Assembly (NCBI GenBank): GCA_913056335.1
Contig: CAJXLX010000030.1
Coordinates: 1-32,596 of the forward strand
Reading direction: 5' to 3'
Length of the DNA: 32,596 nt
Origin: an uncultured Rhodothermaceae bacterium
GTDB taxonomy: Bacteria; Bacteroidota; Rhodothermia; Rhodothermales; Salinibacteraceae
Shown here: positions 4,959 through 32,596 of the stretch, piece after piece
Numbering within the stretch: position 1 is the first letter of the stretch
Layout: every line of letters begins with the position of its first letter
The notes under the pieces: generated by a model
The model's input: only the letters and a program-made list of their open reading frames with translations
Told to the model about the DNA's origin: nothing
Databases searched by the model: none
Translations under genes and position numbers: made by a program

Positions 4959-6143
4959 TCATCCACAGGCTATTATGCCATTTTCGAGGAGGGCCGTGAT
5001 GGCCGTGTCGTCGTAGCCCAGCCGGTTGCGCAGCACGGCTCTGGTGTCGGCGGCGTATCGAGGGGGCGGCCGTAGGGCTGGCAATTCCGGCACGCTGCCG
5101 AAGGTCGTTTGGCGGAGCCCAGCGGGATGCGACGCATCATCTGTCTCCAGTGTCATAGCAGCAGCGTGCGGGTCGTTGAACACGGCAGGAAGCGTGCGTA
5201 CCGCTCCCGCAGGCACGCCGCGCTGGTGCAAGGCGGTCAACAGCGCATCTGCCGACTGCTCAGCCAGCCTGGGGCGTAGCACCGCATCGAGGGCCTCGCG
5301 GTGCTGTACGCGGACTGCGTTGGTCGCGAAGCGCTTCTCCTCAGCCCGTGCCGGACAGCCCAGTACGTCGCAGAGCGCCGCAAACTGGCGATCGGTGCCC
5401 ACAGCAAGCACGACCGGCGTATCTGCCGTTTCGTACGCGGTGCCGTAGGGCGCAATGTTCGGATGCGCCGAGCCCATCCGTTGCGGCACGTGGCCGGTGT
5501 TCAGGTAGTTGGTCGCCTGATTGGCGAGTCCGCTCACCGCCGCCTGCATGAGCGATACCGGTACATATGCGCCCTGGCCGGTTTGCGTACGGCGTAACAG
5601 TCCTACAAGCAGGGCTTCTTTCAGGTGGTGCGCGGCCAGCACATCCATGAGCGCCACCGGCATCTTGGTGGGCGGCCCGTCGGCAGATCCGTTCATGGCC
5701 ATGAACCCGCTCTCTGCCTGAATAACCGCATCGTAGCCAGGACGCGGATTATCCGGTCCGTATCCAGTGATGTGTCCATACAGCAAGGCCGGGTTGATGC
5801 GGCGCAACGTGTCGGCATCAGCCCCAAGTGCTGCGGCCTGCCCTGGACGGTAGTTCGCAATCACGATGTCGGCTTCCGTAACCAGCGTGTGCAGCACATC
5901 CTGTCCGCGTTCAGTACGCAAGTCGAGCGCTACGGACTGCTTGCCGTAGTTGCAGCAGCAGAAGTAGGCCGAGCGGTCATCAGAGAGCGTTTCATGGGGC
6001 AGGGTCCACCGCCGCGTAACGTCGCCGTCCGTACCCGGATTTTCGACTTTGATGACGGTGGCCCCCAGCTCGGCAAAGAACTGTCCCACGCTGGGCCCGG
6101 CCAGCACGCTTGCCAGCTCTAACACTGTACACGATTCGATCAT
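4959..6143 (-). CDS. Class III (CaiB/BaiF-type) CoA-transferase
   Basis: A family III CoA-transferase, which moves CoA between carboxylic acids through an enzyme-bound anhydride on a conserved aspartate. The N-terminus VLELASVLAGPSVGQFFAELG followed by ATVIKVENPGTDGD is typical. The conserved TGYG and the aspartate in PVALMDVLAAHHL (Asp167) match the catalytic position near residue 169 in formyl-CoA transferase. Its length of 394 aa is normal. The ATG at 6143 begins the conserved region directly, so the start is firm. Members act on formate/oxalate, carnitine, succinate/mesaconate or alpha-methylacyl-CoA substrates, and the sequence alone does not choose between them. No partner genes for these pathways are next to it. 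Confidence 0.9.
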   Translation of the reverse strand: MIESCTVLELASVLAGPSVGQFFAELGATVIKVENPGTDGDVTRRWTLPHETLSDDRSAYFCCCNYGKQSVALDLRTERGQDVLHTLVTEADIVIANYRPGQAAALGADADTLRRINPALLYGHITGYGPDNPRPGYDAVIQAESGFMAMNGSADGPPTKMPVALMDVLAAHHLKEALLVGLLRRTQTGQGAYVPVSLMQAAVSGLANQATNYLNTGHVPQRMGSAHPNIAPYGTAYETADTPVVLAVGTDRQFAALCDVLGCPARAEEKRFATNAVRVQHREALDAVLRPRLAEQSADALLTALHQRGVPAGAVRTLPAVFNDPHAAAMTLETDDASHPAGLRQTTFGSVPELPALRPPPRYAADTRAVLRNRLGYDDTAITALLENGIIACG

Positions 6144-9063: not shown

Positions 9064-9519
9064 ATGGCACGTGGCGTAAACAAAGTCGTCTTGGTGGGTC
9101 GGCTGGGTCAAGATCCCGAACTCAAATACACCAACAGTGGCACTGCAGTGTGCACCTTCTCGGTAGCGACCAATGATTCGTACACCGACAGCAACGGCGA
9201 GCGCGTTGACACCACCGAGTGGCACAACATCGTGGTGTGGGGCCGACTGGCGGAGATCTGCGACGAGTATATCGACAAGGGCCAGCAAGTGTATCTGGAA
9301 GGCTCATTACAGACTCGCTCGTGGGAGGACCGCGACGGCAACAAAAAGTATCGCACCGAGGTAAAGGCACGCGAGGTCGTCTTTTTGGGCAACACGCGCT
9401 CAGACTCTCCAAGCACTACACCGCGCGAAGCCGTGCATGAGCCAGCGGATGTAGCGGCATACAGATCCTCTGAAAAGGCACCGGCTTCGGATGAACCCAA
9501 CGGCGCTCCACCGTTTTAA
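9064..9519 (+). CDS. ssb: Single-stranded DNA-binding protein, paralogue with a degraded C-terminal tip
   Basis: An SSB protein that coats single-stranded DNA in replication, recombination and repair. Residues 1-110 form the OB fold, recognised from [33 protein letters not shown], and [20 protein letters not shown]. The linker is short, about 35 residues, and not glycine-rich. The C-terminus is SDEPNGAPPF. Classical SSBs end in an acidic tip with a hydrophobic Pro-Phe (DDDIPF/DDDLPF) that recruits partner enzymes; here Pro-Phe is kept but the aspartates just before it are lost. At 151 aa it is a compact SSB. A second, closely similar ssb follows after 52 bases, so this is a tandem duplication. 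It may serve as a specialised version with weaker partner recruitment. Confidence 0.93.
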   Translation: MARGVNKVVLVGRLGQDPELKYTNSGTAVCTFSVATNDSYTDSNGERVDTTEWHNIVVWGRLAEICDEYIDKGQQVYLEGSLQTRSWEDRDGNKKYRTEVKAREVVFLGNTRSDSPSTTPREAVHEPADVAAYRSSEKAPASDEPNGAPPF

Positions 9520-9571: not shown

Positions 9572-10099
9572 ATGGCACGCGGCGTAAACAAGGTCATCTT
9601 GGTCGGACGACTGGGCCAAGATCCTGAACTCAACTACACCAACAGCGGCACAGCGGTGTGCAACATGCGCATGGCCACCGGCGACTCGTATACCAACCGC
9701 GAGGGCGAGCGCGTTGACACCACCGAGTGGCACGACGTGGTCGCCTGGGGCGGACTTGGCGAAACCTGCGGTGAGTATCTCGAAAAGGGCCGCCAAGTCT
9801 ACGTGGAAGGCTCACTCCAGACCCGCTCCTGGGAGGACCGCGATGGAAATAAGCGGTACAGCACCGAAGTGAAAGCCCGCGATGTCGTCTTTCTGAGTGG
9901 CGGCGACGGCGGCGGCCGACGCGGCAGTTCTGGTGGCAATAACAACCGCATGAACCAAGACAACGGCCCTGGCAACTTCGACCAGCGACGCCAACCGCGC
10001 AAGGGACAACAGCAGAGCAGCAGCCAGGGCGGAGGCGGCGGTGGCCAGAGTCAGCAGCAAGAAGACTCGTTCGAGCCCGACGACGATCTGCCGTTTTAA
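9572..10099 (+). CDS. ssb: Single-stranded DNA-binding protein, canonical tail
   Basis: The second SSB of the tandem pair. The OB fold at about residues 1-110 is nearly the same as in the upstream copy ([33 protein letters not shown]). It is followed by a long glycine-, glutamine- and serine-rich disordered linker (about residues 113-165). The tip is FEPDDDLPF, the canonical acidic partner-binding peptide. The length of 175 aa is typical. This copy looks like the main housekeeping SSB. The two ssb genes are likely cotranscribed, and a strong terminator follows about 95 bases downstream. The UvrD-like helicase at 20600-22711 ends in an almost identical tip, which may compete for the same partners or reflect a shared function. 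Confidence 0.95.
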
Positions 10100-26912: not shown

Positions 26913-27049
26913 TGTCATCTTGAGCGTCGTCCGACGCATGTCGCTCCGACTCCTGTCGGAGGAAAGATCTCCCCCAAGTTTGGCAGGGCCTCTGTCCCGC
27001 CGTCTCTGCCAAGCGCCAAGGAGATGGTTCGACTGCGCTCACCATGACA
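26913..27049. repeat. Compound palindromic intergenic repeat
   Basis: A roughly 137-bp element begins TGTCATCTTGAGCG and ends with the imperfect inverse, CGCTCACCATGACA. Nested inside are the matching GATCTCC and GGAGAT blocks, a TCCGAC-TCCT-GTCGGA stem, and a TTGGCAG / CTGCCAA stem. The outer arms resemble the widespread TGTCAT-CTGAGCG-type repeats that occur in many bacterial genomes, which I recognise from memory. It occupies most of the 285-bp gap between the convergent rpiA and beta-propeller genes. Confidence 0.7.
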
Positions 27050-27118
27050 AGCTTCGTTGGGGAATGATTGCAGAGCAACCATCAAAATGAGGATTGACGG
27101 AGCACTATCTATTGGTGT

Positions 27119-28165
27119 CTACCAATCAGCATTCAGTTCAGCCCTCCGAATGGTTAACCTGCCAAAATCGGGGCCATAGTCGTCCTGTGTGAAATAGAAG
27201 GCATCCGTCACGCTCCCCAGCACCCCCGGCGTTTCAATGCCGTGAGCGAGTAGCGTCCCCTCACGATCGAATACATCAAGAAAGTACCTGGGGGCGTCAT
27301 CGCCCCTGTTTTTGTTTTCGTGCTGAACAAAGACATAGTTCTGATGGACGAAAAGATCGCGAATGATGGAGTGGGGCCGACTGAGCAGATCACGTCGGTC
27401 TGCCATAAAGGCTTCACGCGAATCGTACCGCTCTGATTCCGCCTCCAGGAACGCCGTAGACGGCGAATCTACGGGAAACGACACGACGTGCTCGCCCTCC
27501 AGTGTGTAGCTCTGCACCACCGGCTCTTGCACATTGGCCACATACACCGTATCTCCCGCCACATCGCCCTTCCAGGTTGCTGAAAACGGCGTCTCGTCTA
27601 TGGATGCCATACCCTGAAGGGGATTTCCCTCTGCATCATACACCCGCACCGCACAGATCGACGACTCACACGCATTGGGCCCAATGGTCACCATCCGAGA
27701 ACGCCCTCCGTGCTCCACCGGAAACAGATGTTCGGTCTGAACGGCCCCACGGCCCCACATGGCTACATGATTCAGTGCATCGTCGAACACCTGAATGCGC
27801 ATGTTGCCGCGTTCGTACACGAAGATCTCCTCGGCATCGAGACCCGGTTTCACTTCAAACGGCATCTGCACATCGCCCGGTCCCTGACCCAACTGTCCGG
27901 CTTCGGCCAGGCGTGTGCCATCGTGGTCGTAGAGGGCGATCTGGTGGCTCTGGTAATCGGCAAGATAGATGCGCTCCGCGGTAACGTGCGGGTTGATGAT
28001 CGCTGTTAGGGGGACCGTTTCATCGCCCTCCAGCACGGTCTCGTCTGTGATGGTGAAGGCATCGTCGAAGGCGATCGGGCCCCGATCCTCGTCCGACTGG
28101 CCATGTGCCGGTTGCACAGCGACTGCCACCACGAGAGCCAAAAGCGCCACGAGGGTACGATTCAT
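27119..28165 (-). CDS. Secreted six-bladed beta-propeller protein
   Basis: An exported beta-propeller protein of the kind common in Bacteroidota. From the ATG at 28165 (MNRTLVALLALVVAVAVQPAHG) it has a clean signal peptide cleaved around AHG-Q and is 348 aa. A start at 28183 is possible; the track's 58 extra residues are not signal-peptide-like. Blades are visible as repeated segments such as IYLADYQSHQIALYDHDGT, then GQGPGDVQMPFEV and IFVYERGNMRIQVFDD. The G-Q-G-P-G motif followed by a Phe-rich blade is characteristic of this family. The molecular role is unknown; relatives may bind sugars or proteins at the surface or in the periplasm. The stop codon lies within a small hairpin (ATTGGT/ACCAAT). 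The closest neighbour on the same strand is a Cys-rich secreted peptide, 379 bases upstream. Confidence 0.82.
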   Translation of the reverse strand: MNRTLVALLALVVAVAVQPAHGQSDEDRGPIAFDDAFTITDETVLEGDETVPLTAIINPHVTAERIYLADYQSHQIALYDHDGTRLAEAGQLGQGPGDVQMPFEVKPGLDAEEIFVYERGNMRIQVFDDALNHVAMWGRGAVQTEHLFPVEHGGRSRMVTIGPNACESSICAVRVYDAEGNPLQGMASIDETPFSATWKGDVAGDTVYVANVQEPVVQSYTLEGEHVVSFPVDSPSTAFLEAESERYDSREAFMADRRDLLSRPHSIIRDLFVHQNYVFVQHENKNRGDDAPRYFLDVFDREGTLLAHGIETPGVLGSVTDAFYFTQDDYGPDFGRLTIRRAELNADW

Positions 28166-28544
28166 ATGCAGGGAATGGAGCATTATCGTGCTTGGGTATT
28201 CGATGAATGGGTTGGACTCATTAGGTAGGTTTTCAACCAGTGCAAGGCCTGCCACCCACGCTATATAGCGTAGCAGAAAGTCTGAAGCACGTGAAAGGAT
28301 ATACGGAATACAGTTCACTATGTCAGGATGCCATTGCAAGTAAAGTCCCCATGAGTCACCTGGATGGAGCCCGACAGCCGTATCTCTTAGGGTCAGGAAC
28401 AGATCCAGGATGACGCATGGGGGCGTGCAGCACTACATCGCACTAATCTACTTTTTTAGTAGCCACAATCATACTAGCATCACGATTGTGATTTTGTACC
28501 GTACGCGTTTATCTGCCGCATTGTTAGCTGTTATACTTGATACT
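28166..28544. other. Intergenic region, AT-richer, no gene seen
   Basis: This gap between the Cys-rich peptide and the propeller gene becomes AT-rich to the right; a hand count of 28441-28500 gives 35 percent GC. A CACAATC / GATTGTG inverted repeat at 28464-28490 is the only clear structure. The 87-aa ORF at 28410-28673 (+) runs antisense to the Cys-rich peptide gene and is not supported by any feature. Confidence 0.5.
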
Positions 28545-28889
28545 TTACTGCTGGATAGGAAAATGCCACCCGCAAGGTTCACAGAGAAAATTATTGCCAC
28601 TTATATTTCTGAGACAGCAAACACTTCCTGTACCCTGTACTGTGCAACCTGCCGCTTTACAGCCACTTTGTAAACCTTTTTGAGAACACTGGTTCAAGAG
28701 TGTGCTTGCATTGAGAGCACTTTGACTGTCGATGAGTAATTTCGTCGCTCCCACTTCTAACAGGACTTGCTCCGTGTCAGTGCTATTCTCAACAATTGGC
28801 TCCGGATTATCTGGCTCCGGGTCACCCACTTCTGCCGTAAATCCAACGAGGAAAACAGCAGCTAAAAGTACTGCACATAGTGATCGCAT
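28545..28889 (-). CDS. Small cysteine-rich secreted protein, unknown function
   Basis: I do not recognise this family. The 114-aa product starts MRSLCAVLLAAVFLVGFTAE, a likely signal peptide. An acidic, Pro-rich spacer follows (PEPDNPEPIVEN), then a mixed helix-like stretch to residue 66. The last 47 residues hold seven cysteines (68, 77, 82, 91, 92, 103, 106), including a CC pair, in a Gly-rich context (CKAAGCTVQGTGSVCC). Such a pattern suggests disulfide bonds or metal binding after export. The odd number of cysteines leaves one free for dimerisation or prosthetic attachment. The gene sits in a visibly AT-richer patch (28561-28620 counts 40 percent GC), so it may have come by transfer. Small Cys-rich secreted peptides next to beta-propeller genes are known in Bacteroidota (NVEALA-type), but the NVEALA motif itself is absent. 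Confidence 0.6.
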   Translation of the reverse strand: MRSLCAVLLAAVFLVGFTAEVGDPEPDNPEPIVENSTDTEQVLLEVGATKLLIDSQSALNASTLLNQCSQKGLQSGCKAAGCTVQGTGSVCCLRNISGNNFLCEPCGWHFPIQQ

Positions 28890-29005
28890 AGCGTTGCGTT
28901 ATTTTTGATGAATGCTTTTAACGGACGCTTTTTAGAGAGAGAGACAGGAAACTATCAAGGTATATCACTCTGCCTATCGGTCATTCACAGAAGTTAAATA
29001 AATAT

Positions 29006-29037
29006 AAAAAGAGACGCCCTCTTCCGAGAGCGCCTCT
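29006..29037 (-). terminator. Intrinsic terminator of the GH31-sugar porter operon
   Basis: On the minus strand, about 30 bases past the transporter stop, a 12-bp stem (AGAGGCGCTCTC / GAGGGCGTCTCT, with two G-U pairs) closed by a GGAA tetraloop is followed directly by TTTTTATATTTATTT. This is a very good rho-independent terminator. Confidence 0.87.
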
Positions 29038-29066
29038 GGAGTTGTTGAGATATGTGGACTACGTGT

Positions 29067-30539
29067 TTACGACGCCTGCCCGGCCGCAATGTCGGCGGCT
29101 TCGTGTTCTTGGGACATCTGTTCGAGCGTTTTGCCCATCGTTTCTTCGATGTACTGCTGCACGAAGACAAACGCAATCACGCCAAAGGCCGCATAGGTGC
29201 CGTATGCTATGCCCAGTCCCACACTGGCAAGCAGCACCGGGAAGGTCATGGTAATCGCAAAGTTCGAGAGCCACTGCACCAGTCCAGCCATCGCCAGCGC
29301 CGCGCCACGGAAGCGGTTCGGAAACATCTCGCCGAGCATCACCCACATGATGGGCCCCCACGAGAACGCAAAGAACGCAATGTAGGCGTTCGCTGCCAGC
29401 AGCGCGACCAGCCCGGCATCATCGCTGAGCTGCAGGCCTCCATCTGGGCCCAGCCCGCCTGTGCTGAAGACGTAAGCCATCACCCCGAGCGCGGCGGCCT
29501 GCCCCAGCGCGCCGATCAGCAGGAGCGGGCGGCGCCCCACTTTGTCGATGAGCGCAATCGCAATGAAGGTGAATCCGACATTTACCGAGCCGCTAATCAC
29601 GTTCTGCATGAGCGCGCTCGACTCGTCGAATCCAGCGGCCTGCCAGAGCGTGGCGCCGTAGTAAAAGATCACGTTGATGCCGGTAAACTGCTGCAAGGCG
29701 GCAAGCCCGAGTCCGACCCACACAATCGGATGCACGCGTCCGGTGTGCTCGCTAATAATGTCAGAGAGGCGCGGCTTGCGCGTGTCGAGCACAGTGTCTT
29801 TGATGTCGGCCACGGTCTGCCTGGCCTTCTCTTTGGCGTTGAGCAGCCGCTGAAGCACATCCTGCGCCTCGCCGTCGCGCCCTGCGGCCACCAGGTAGCG
29901 CGGCGACTCGGGGATAAAGAGCAGGCTAATCAGAAAGATGGATCCGGGGATGATCTCCACCCAGTACATCCAGCGCCACGCCGGAAAGTCAAGCCAGAAC
30001 AGGTCGGATGCGCTTCCAGCCGCACCCGCAATGAGGTAGTTGCTCAGGAACGCAATGAACAGCCCGACCACAATCATGAGCTGCTGCAACGTGGCCATGC
30101 GTCCGCGGATGTGGGCGGGCGAGATCTCGCTGATGTAGGCGGGCGCTAAGACGCTGGCGGCGCCCACCGCGACGCCACCGATAATCCGAAAGAAGACGAA
30201 CGGCGCCGAACTCCAGGCTACGCCCGAGCCCCATGCACTAAAGATAAACAGGCATGCAGTGGCGATCATCACCAGGCGACGGCCATACTTATCGGCCACC
30301 GTCCCCGCAAAGAACGCCCCCACCGCGCTTCCCAGTAGCATCGACGCCACGTTGAAGCCCGTGCCCACGGCATCGGAGTTAAACGCTTCTTGCAGCGCAT
30401 CAACCGTGCCGTTGATGACGCCGCTGTCGAATCCAAACAGAAAGCCGCCCAGGGCTGCCGCCATCGAAATCAGGATGACCATCAGGGTGTTGCCCTGGCC
30501 TTCTTCGGGCGCGGGGATCTCTAACTCGTTGTCTTGCAT
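29067..30539 (-). CDS. Sugar porter family MFS transporter
   Basis: A 12-helix major facilitator of the sugar porter family, probably importing a monosaccharide such as glucose or xylose with protons. The start MQDNELEIPAPEEG at 30539 gives 490 aa; the track extends 17 codons into the intergenic space. Family signatures are present: FGFDSGVINGT in helix 1, DKYGRRLVMI after helix 2, PAHIRGRMATLQQL, PESPRYLVAAGRDGEA after helix 6, DKVGRRPLLLIG in helix 8-9, and FPNRFRGAALAMAGL near helix 10. It lies 54 bases after the GH31 gene on the same strand and ends at a strong terminator. The context suggests it takes up the sugar released by that enzyme. Confidence 0.94.
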   Translation of the reverse strand: MQDNELEIPAPEEGQGNTLMVILISMAAALGGFLFGFDSGVINGTVDALQEAFNSDAVGTGFNVASMLLGSAVGAFFAGTVADKYGRRLVMIATACLFIFSAWGSGVAWSSAPFVFFRIIGGVAVGAASVLAPAYISEISPAHIRGRMATLQQLMIVVGLFIAFLSNYLIAGAAGSASDLFWLDFPAWRWMYWVEIIPGSIFLISLLFIPESPRYLVAAGRDGEAQDVLQRLLNAKEKARQTVADIKDTVLDTRKPRLSDIISEHTGRVHPIVWVGLGLAALQQFTGINVIFYYGATLWQAAGFDESSALMQNVISGSVNVGFTFIAIALIDKVGRRPLLLIGALGQAAALGVMAYVFSTGGLGPDGGLQLSDDAGLVALLAANAYIAFFAFSWGPIMWVMLGEMFPNRFRGAALAMAGLVQWLSNFAITMTFPVLLASVGLGIAYGTYAAFGVIAFVFVQQYIEETMGKTLEQMSQEHEAADIAAGQAS

Positions 30540-30593
30540 GGAGACAGGTCGGTCGGTGCGCGTGAATGAGCAGGAGCGTGCAATGTACAAATG

Positions 30594-32596
30594 CTACGGC
30601 AGGGATGCCACCTCGGCGTTTTGGACGCGCAGCGTGTGGGCAGCGTCGAGGGCCGCACCATCAACCTGAATGTGCAGTTGCTGCGTGTCGGCATTGTAGT
30701 GGAAGCCGTTGTTTTCGGCAACGGCCTGGGCCGAGTCGCGCTGCGGCAGGCTGGTGCCGTTGTGCATCACCGCCGTGGGAGCGCTGCTCAGGCGGTGCAC
30801 GGTGGGCGCAAGCGTGCGTGCGGCGGGCTGATCTTCGTACGTCCCGGTAGTCGCTTCTACGGTTACGTCGATCACCGGGGTGCCGTCTACCGTGTGCTGC
30901 GTCTGGTGCAGCGCCGTGGTGGCGTAGGCGCCGTTGTCGTAGGCCAGCGTGCTGCCGTCGTCTTCGTAGAGCGAAGCGCTATGGCGCGCATCAGGACCGG
31001 GGTAGACGTCCAGGTGCAGTTCGTCTTGGGGCTGTGCGCCGGTGTGAGGGGCCACCGGACGCATCGGGATGATGCTTCCGGCCCGCACAAACAGCGGCAT
31101 CTCGTCGAGCGGCGCGTCTACGGTGGCGGACTGTCCACCAGCGTACGCGTCTCCGCTCCAGTAATGAATCCACGTGCCTTGGGGCAGTTCAACGGTCTTT
31201 TCGCGCTGCCCTTCGGTCATGACGGGGGCGACGAGGAAGGCATCCCCAAAGAGATAGGCATCGTCATAATTCGCAAGCGCCGGGTTGTCCGCATCCGCAA
31301 AAAAGAGGGGACGCGTGAGCGGCATGCCAGTGGTGTGGTTTTCGTGCGCCAGGGTGTACAGATACGGCATGAGGCGGTAGCGCAGTTGCACGTAATCGCG
31401 CACGATGGATGTCGTTTCCTCGCTGAAGCGCGTGGGCTCGGTCGCCTGGTCGTCTACGCCGTGGGGGCGCATGGTGGGCGTGAAAGCGCCGTGTTGCAGC
31501 CAGCGCGTGTAGAGCTCGTCGGTGGTGGTACCGTTGGTGAATCCGCCCAGATCAGAGCTGTAGTAGGCCAGTCCCGACAGGCTCATGTTCAGCAGCATGG
31601 GCGGCTGCGACTGCAAGCCCGTGAAGCTACGCCCCACATCGCCCGACCACAGGAACGTGCTGTAGCGCTGGATGCCTGCGGACCCGGCGCGCGTCAGATT
31701 GACCAAGCGCTGGTTGGGGCGCCAGTCGCGGTAGCCGTCGAACAGCGTCTTGGCCCAGAGCAGGTTGTAGGCGTTGTGGACGGAGGCTACGCTGCCCTCG
31801 TAGTGCCGCATACTATCGGGATGTTCTTCGGGCTCGCCGAGATCGGTCCAGAGTCCGCCCATCTCTTCACCCATGAAGACGGGGTACTGCCCCCACCACC
31901 AGGCGCGGGCAGCGGGATTCGTGAGGTCAACCAACGCGGCCTGACAGCCTGCGTCGCTGCTGGCCACTGATTCGGTACACGACCACCAGTTGTCGATGAG
32001 GTACGTATCGCCGCTATCGTTCTGGGCGAAGTAGCCCGCCTGGTCGCCCTCCTCGAAGAGGCCCGATTCAGGGACGAGGAAGGGTTCGGTGATGGCAATG
32101 GTCTGCACGCCGTCGTTGCGCAGGTCGCGCATCATTTGAAAAGGCTCGGGGAAGCGCTCGCGGTTCCAGCGCAAATCGCCCATGTGCTCGAACCAGTAGA
32201 GGTCGAGAATAAGCCCGTCGATGGGGATATCGTTGGTGCGCAGTTCGTCGACAATGTCGCGAGCGTCGTCTTCGGTGCGGTAGCCGTACTTCGACTGGAT
32301 GTAGCCGAGCGCCCACTTTGGCGGCATGGGCTGGCGTCCGGTGAGCGCGGTGTACTGCTCTAATTGGGCCGGGACGTCGGGGCTTGCCATCAGGTAGTAG
32401 GTGAGAGCACCGCCTTCGACATCCACCGAAAATGTGTTCGGATTGGCAGCTCCGATGTCGAAGCGCGTGGGCCAGGTGGTATCCACGTACAGTCCGTATC
32501 CGCTACTGGTAACAGCCAGCGGCACGTTCACCTTCATCTGAGGCGGCGCCTCGTGGTAGCCGGACTGCTGCGTGTTGTAGAGGTCAACGGCCTTGC
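30594..32596 (-). CDS. Glycoside hydrolase family 31 enzyme (alpha-glucosidase type), 5' end cut by window
   Basis: A GH31 enzyme acting on alpha-linked sugars. The reading frame stays open past the track's Met at 32537 to the window edge (DLYNTQQSGYHEAPPQ), and the family's N-terminal domain is missing, so the true start lies outside. In the (beta/alpha)8 barrel, DGLILDLYWFEHMGDLRW forms the first active-site strand, the nucleophile is the Asp in GGLWTDLGEPE, and the acid/base Asp is in FLWSGDVGRSF. C-terminal beta domains include RAGSIIPMRP and a DUF5110-like region with DVYPGPDARHSASLYEDDG. The DLYWF-HMG-L-W pattern recalls the oligosaccharide 4-alpha-glucosyltransferase Agd31B, so transglycosylation is possible alongside hydrolysis. 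It is followed by a sugar porter in an apparent two-gene operon. Confidence 0.92.
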   Translation of the reverse strand, partial: KAVDLYNTQQSGYHEAPPQMKVNVPLAVTSSGYGLYVDTTWPTRFDIGAANPNTFSVDVEGGALTYYLMASPDVPAQLEQYTALTGRQPMPPKWALGYIQSKYGYRTEDDARDIVDELRTNDIPIDGLILDLYWFEHMGDLRWNRERFPEPFQMMRDLRNDGVQTIAITEPFLVPESGLFEEGDQAGYFAQNDSGDTYLIDNWWSCTESVASSDAGCQAALVDLTNPAARAWWWGQYPVFMGEEMGGLWTDLGEPEEHPDSMRHYEGSVASVHNAYNLLWAKTLFDGYRDWRPNQRLVNLTRAGSAGIQRYSTFLWSGDVGRSFTGLQSQPPMLLNMSLSGLAYYSSDLGGFTNGTTTDELYTRWLQHGAFTPTMRPHGVDDQATEPTRFSEETTSIVRDYVQLRYRLMPYLYTLAHENHTTGMPLTRPLFFADADNPALANYDDAYLFGDAFLVAPVMTEGQREKTVELPQGTWIHYWSGDAYAGGQSATVDAPLDEMPLFVRAGSIIPMRPVAPHTGAQPQDELHLDVYPGPDARHSASLYEDDGSTLAYDNGAYATTALHQTQHTVDGTPVIDVTVEATTGTYEDQPAARTLAPTVHRLSSAPTAVMHNGTSLPQRDSAQAVAENNGFHYNADTQQLHIQVDGAALDAAHTLRVQNAEVASLP

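Follow-up and report, generated by a model that had tools for sequence, protein, structure and literature searches.

A probable secreted cysteine-rich peptide encoded upstream of an exported beta-propeller points to an uncharacterised two-gene system in Rhodothermales

Among described families, the peptides of NVEALA (PF14055) show the layout of the locus reported here, a small leader-bearing peptide with a same-strand propeller directly downstream, and their cysteines usually lie in the C-terminal part, as in the peptide studied here. The sequence-only reading had mentioned such a neighbourhood for NVEALA-type proteins, and it does exist in one Bacteroidota genome (G329), where 6 of 6 PF14055 peptides are directly followed by a propeller matching PF15869, PF13970 or PF17170; the downstream propeller is a layout seen in this analysis and is outside the Pfam definition of the family. 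DUF6520 (PF20130), also from the Bacteroidota, likewise consists of short exported multi-cysteine peptides. In the three DUF6520 loci tested (L133, L134 and L135) the peptides come directly after MauE-domain genes, which is another neighbourhood of exported cysteine-rich peptides. In methylamine dehydrogenase, a disulfide-rich small subunit, with two tryptophans for the TTQ cofactor and about twelve cysteines, sits on a propeller subunit. Searches of the open-access literature, with subscription journals mostly outside their scope, found nothing on NVEALA, DUF6520 or peptide–propeller pairing.

The window, the whole stretch of 32,596 nt that was analysed, is an entire contig of a genome comprising 220 contigs and estimated to be 86% complete, from a salt-loving bacterium of the genus Longimonas. 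Its same-genus relative is Longimonas halophila KCTC 42399 (G005, NZ_PDEP01000005.1; Rhodothermota, Rhodothermales). The features of the locus are as follows.

28545–28889, minus strand: putative gene for an exported cysteine-rich peptide of 114 aa (ATG ORF, chance test and class-level recurrence)
28833–28889, minus strand: predicted Sec-type leader, about residues 1–19, MRSLCAVLLAAVFLVGFTA (rule-based; cleavage site uncertain)
28710–28832, minus strand: acidic spacer, residues 20–60 (ten D/E versus one K/R)
28548–28709, minus strand: cysteine domain, residues 61–114 (seven cysteines, C-x-P-C-G at 103–107, C-terminal PIQQ)
27119–28165, minus strand: exported beta-propeller of 348 aa, the presumed partner (L. 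halophila ortholog, Foldseek)
29010–29037, minus strand: intrinsic-terminator-like hairpin 3′ of the MFS transporter gene, parting the transporter from the peptide gene

The 114-aa ORF, leader, acidic spacer and seven cysteines in the last 47 residues that had been described from the sequence are all present. Cysteines occur at residues 5, 68, 77, 82, 91, 92, 103 and 106, and the leader has one positive charge followed by a hydrophobic core, with no D or E (signal calls were made with a simple hydrophobicity rule, not SignalP). A structure model of the peptide was poor and uninformative (pLDDT 51). The ORF was also said to lie in an AT-rich patch of 35–40% GC; GC is indeed lower than in the window as a whole (60.6%), but the ORF itself has 46.1% and the intergenic interval between propeller and transporter 45.5%, with minima of 40% over 200 nt and 34% over 100 nt.

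As had been proposed, the peptide gene lies upstream of a secreted beta-propeller gene on the same strand, at a distance of 379 nt. The L. halophila ortholog of this propeller is 84% identical, with an omega of 0.21, and the closest propeller outside Longimonas comes from a Salinibacteraceae MAG (G025, SLED01000039.1). A model of the window protein (mean pLDDT 64, pTM 0.70) and the Foldseek comparison predict a propeller fold, the top matches including NHL-repeat propellers and the Bacteroides proteins DUF4221 (3s9j) and BF0058 (4raa); these share 10–15% identity with the window propeller, and their entry titles mention no peptide ligand. Against PF17170, a six-bladed propeller family, the window propeller scores 12.1 bits with a cut-off of 22.9, and its sister at L115 scores 27.3 bits. 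No minus-strand terminator-like sites were found in the gap between peptide and propeller. A hairpin at 28461–28492 stands there beside a second short hairpin, and the folding energy of this region is ordinary compared with shuffles (z −0.87). An Rfam search of 27000–30700 gave no match, and a tRNA scan of the whole window found none. Positions 28424–28440 hold a 17-nt inverted near-copy of the transporter 3′ end (29147–29163, 94% complementary), which is possibly a recombination scar or due to chance. Elsewhere in the window, adjoining plus-strand genes at 9064–9519 and 9572–10099 read as single-stranded-DNA-binding-type proteins.

When the interval was shuffled 1000 times with dinucleotide composition preserved, an ATG ORF of at least 110 aa arose in 3.3% of shuffles and one that also had a hydrophobic leader in 0.3%, whereas the combination of ORF length, leader and seven cysteines in the last 50 residues arose in 0 of 1000. 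The codon score of the ORF falls on the non-coding side, with a GC3 of 0.37. Codon statistics of this kind had been named beforehand as evidence against the peptide; the ORF does score as non-coding, but the same score is given by sister peptides that purifying selection clearly maintains, which makes the test unusable here. That no family could be assigned from the sequence was borne out, with searches of Pfam, NCBIfam, PHROGs and PDB sequences returning nothing above noise. A scan of GTDB contigs returned no relative, and none that was convincing was found in 27 genomes of the family, where weak matches (E 0.02 or worse, several crossing stop codons) were rejected. A profile built from the window and L107 peptides, run against 114 Rhodothermales genomes, recovered its two members only, with everything else at E of at least 0.02, and profile–profile comparison with the sister peptide family A6 gave no signal. 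The spacer is weakly similar to the L033 peptide (BLAST E 0.002, residues 3–46). Taken on its sequence, the ORF probably encodes a secreted disulfide-rich peptide.

Comparison with the described families places the window peptide outside each of them. Although the layout is the same, the peptide is, judged by sequence, not a member of NVEALA: PF14055 gave no match to it at E up to 1, nor to any of ten sisters when E was allowed to reach 10, and it has no N-[VI]-E-A-L-A motif separating its leader from its cysteine region. NVEALA was not found in the sampled Rhodothermales genomes, and the window host belongs to the Rhodothermota. PF20130 did not match the window peptide and reached 11–13 bits against three sister peptides, below its cut-off of 25.4; DUF6520 was rejected as a parent family because the neighbourhood differs, with a MauE-domain gene in place of the propeller. 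Compared with the small subunit of methylamine dehydrogenase, the window peptide has one tryptophan rather than two and seven cysteines outside the leader rather than about twelve.

Recurrence of the layout was examined in loci around the propellers of the two Longimonas genomes and their relatives. Under a strict rule (ATG start, at most 150 aa, at least four cysteines after the leader, end no more than 450 nt upstream of the propeller), peptides were found at 11 of 66 propellers and at none of 148 control genes from those loci (p ~1e-6; 12 of 67 before one propeller counted twice was removed). The rules were set once some pairs were already known, the loci were picked for having propellers and the control genes were not matched for secretion. 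Leaving out the window pair gives 10 of 65 (p = 4e-6). A looser rule flagged 30 of 84 propellers, of which 24 were kept after six ORFs were discarded by eye (GC-rich frames, a 169-aa frame resembling part of another gene, and weak leaders). At the majority of the surveyed propellers no peptide was detected. In the kept sister pairs the two genes overlap by up to 17 nt or stand as much as 149 nt apart, and the gap of the window pair is longer. In the opposite direction, a profile of the A6 peptides found 16 places in the 114 Rhodothermales genomes, 14 of them beside a propeller; the exceptions (L186 and L188) are weak matches whose frames are 245 and 304 aa long. An NCxC core is kept in A6 across Longimonas, genus g7 and family f11, with differing leaders, and in three genomes of f11 (G064, G066 and G067) the last 4 nt of the peptide gene are also the first of the propeller frame. 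Alternating arrays of cysteine-rich peptides and propellers are found at L041 (4241–5996, with an extra peptide copy at 5805–5996) and L115 (8527–11563). The suggested check for recurring peptide and propeller neighbours thus came out positive, the layout being widespread in Rhodothermales, and the window peptide is probably no isolated case.

Some features of the window peptide recur in particular sisters. CxPCG is common to it and to the seven-cysteine peptide of the closest propeller outside Longimonas, where it lies near the end, and the PIQQ C-terminus is found again in the L172 peptide, from another genus. P-I occurs in the last six residues of 7 of 25 collected peptides, against a shuffled mean of 0.37, a figure that is only suggestive since the motif was spotted before being tested.

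Three ortholog pairs of sister peptides between the two Longimonas genomes have omega values of 0.12, 0.29 and 0.45. The tested sister peptides have a GC of 0.45–0.52 and a mostly low GC3, including the pair at C68/C2, which has the same neighbours in both Longimonas genomes. Low GC is therefore a property of the class and not a mark of recent transfer, and the earlier suggestion that the AT-rich patch signals horizontal acquisition was rejected. Among 17 diverged pairs (propeller similarity under 0.25), mature-peptide similarity follows propeller similarity (Spearman p 0.03, Pearson p 0.01), a correlation that is also to be expected where linked genes have a common ancestry; leader similarity does not track propeller similarity in the same pairs (p ~0.4). 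The two nearest peptide-bearing relatives of the window propeller (L035 and L033) are also the ones whose peptides come closest to the window peptide (p = 0.004), with peptide similarities that are marginal (E 0.002 to 0.02).

At the same locus L. halophila retains the flanking transporter, the propeller and ribose-phosphate isomerase. No peptide was found at the site in that genome, which is ~92% complete, and a second propeller stands in its place. Between this extra propeller and the orthologous one lie 94 nt that duplicate the 3′ end of the transporter gene (L031 6948–7041, 95.7% identical to window positions 29075–29168). The locus varies across species, and the transporter-tail copy suggests that the cassette may have been gained via recombination at the tail of the transporter gene.

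We think it likely that the ORF is genuine, that it encodes an exported peptide stabilised by disulfides, and that it forms a two-gene cassette with the adjacent downstream exported propeller. For the class, the pairing is well supported by recurrence, by the reciprocal neighbourhood and by correlated divergence. At the window locus, where it is argued from position and from the agreement between the top relatives of the two genes, it is less so, because of the 379-nt gap and because L. halophila keeps the propeller without a peptide. The course of events that we infer begins with the leader, which would carry the peptide through the inner membrane. The seven-cysteine domain would then fold and form its disulfides, either in the periplasm or outside, and could dock on its own propeller, perhaps via the short C-terminal tail, with the propeller acting as a dedicated binding partner, whether receptor, carrier or scaffold. 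Counting against this reading, the window peptide has no ortholog and a codon score on the non-coding side, the omega values being those of sister peptides, the L. halophila propeller is under purifying selection with no peptide at the same site, and the greater part of the surveyed propellers lack a peptide too.

It is unlikely, though the best placed of the alternatives, that the peptide is an exported antibacterial or kin-discrimination effector acting on neighbours and the cognate propeller an immunity protein or decoy that captures it. Private pairs that diverge together, tandem arrays and gain or loss between sister species would be in keeping with such a role, as would the lone L. halophila propeller if it were an orphan immunity gene. 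Between the two Longimonas genomes, however, selection on the sister peptides is purifying rather than diversifying, the cysteine motif of one peptide family is conserved across two families of the order, and the search of one library, PHROGs, gave no match. By analogy with methylamine dehydrogenase, the peptide might instead serve a propeller enzyme as a small subunit, whether structural or catalytic, given that a cysteine-rich peptide is likewise paired with an exported propeller and that DUF6520, a different peptide family of the Bacteroidota, adjoins MauE-domain genes. The single tryptophan, a propeller of a different family (NHL/DUF4221-like), the persistence of the L. halophila propeller without a peptide and the lack of any recognised MauE-like gene near the pair make this improbable.

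Equally improbable, in our estimate, is an orphan peptide gained alone in this strain, with its place before a propeller a coincidence. The arrangement is seen at none of the control genes, the top relatives of peptide and propeller match, and the closest propeller outside Longimonas also has a seven-cysteine peptide with CxPCG near its end; set against these are the missing ortholog in the 114 Rhodothermales genomes and the GTDB contig scan, a gap exceeding that of the other pairs and the variability of the locus between species. That the ORF arose by chance within a non-coding AT-rich spacer is very improbable: its codon score and GC3 are typical of non-coding DNA and it has no ortholog, but its combination of features was absent from all shuffles, and purifying selection acts on sister peptides whose composition is the same.

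Together with the many divergent but similar pairs in relatives, the window pair points to an uncharacterised two-gene system of peptide and propeller. Small exported cysteine-rich peptides of unrelated sequence are missed by annotation; the constant propeller neighbour makes such peptides findable, each with a testable partner. It is quite possible, and we propose it tentatively, that a large, unrecognised class of exported peptide–propeller recognition cassettes is common to Rhodothermota and Bacteroidota. In each cassette a fast-diverging cysteine-rich peptide would be a ligand private to its propeller, and NVEALA would be only the best-marked branch of the class. If the pairing is functional, many orphan peptides and orphan propellers in the two phyla would come under one hypothesis.
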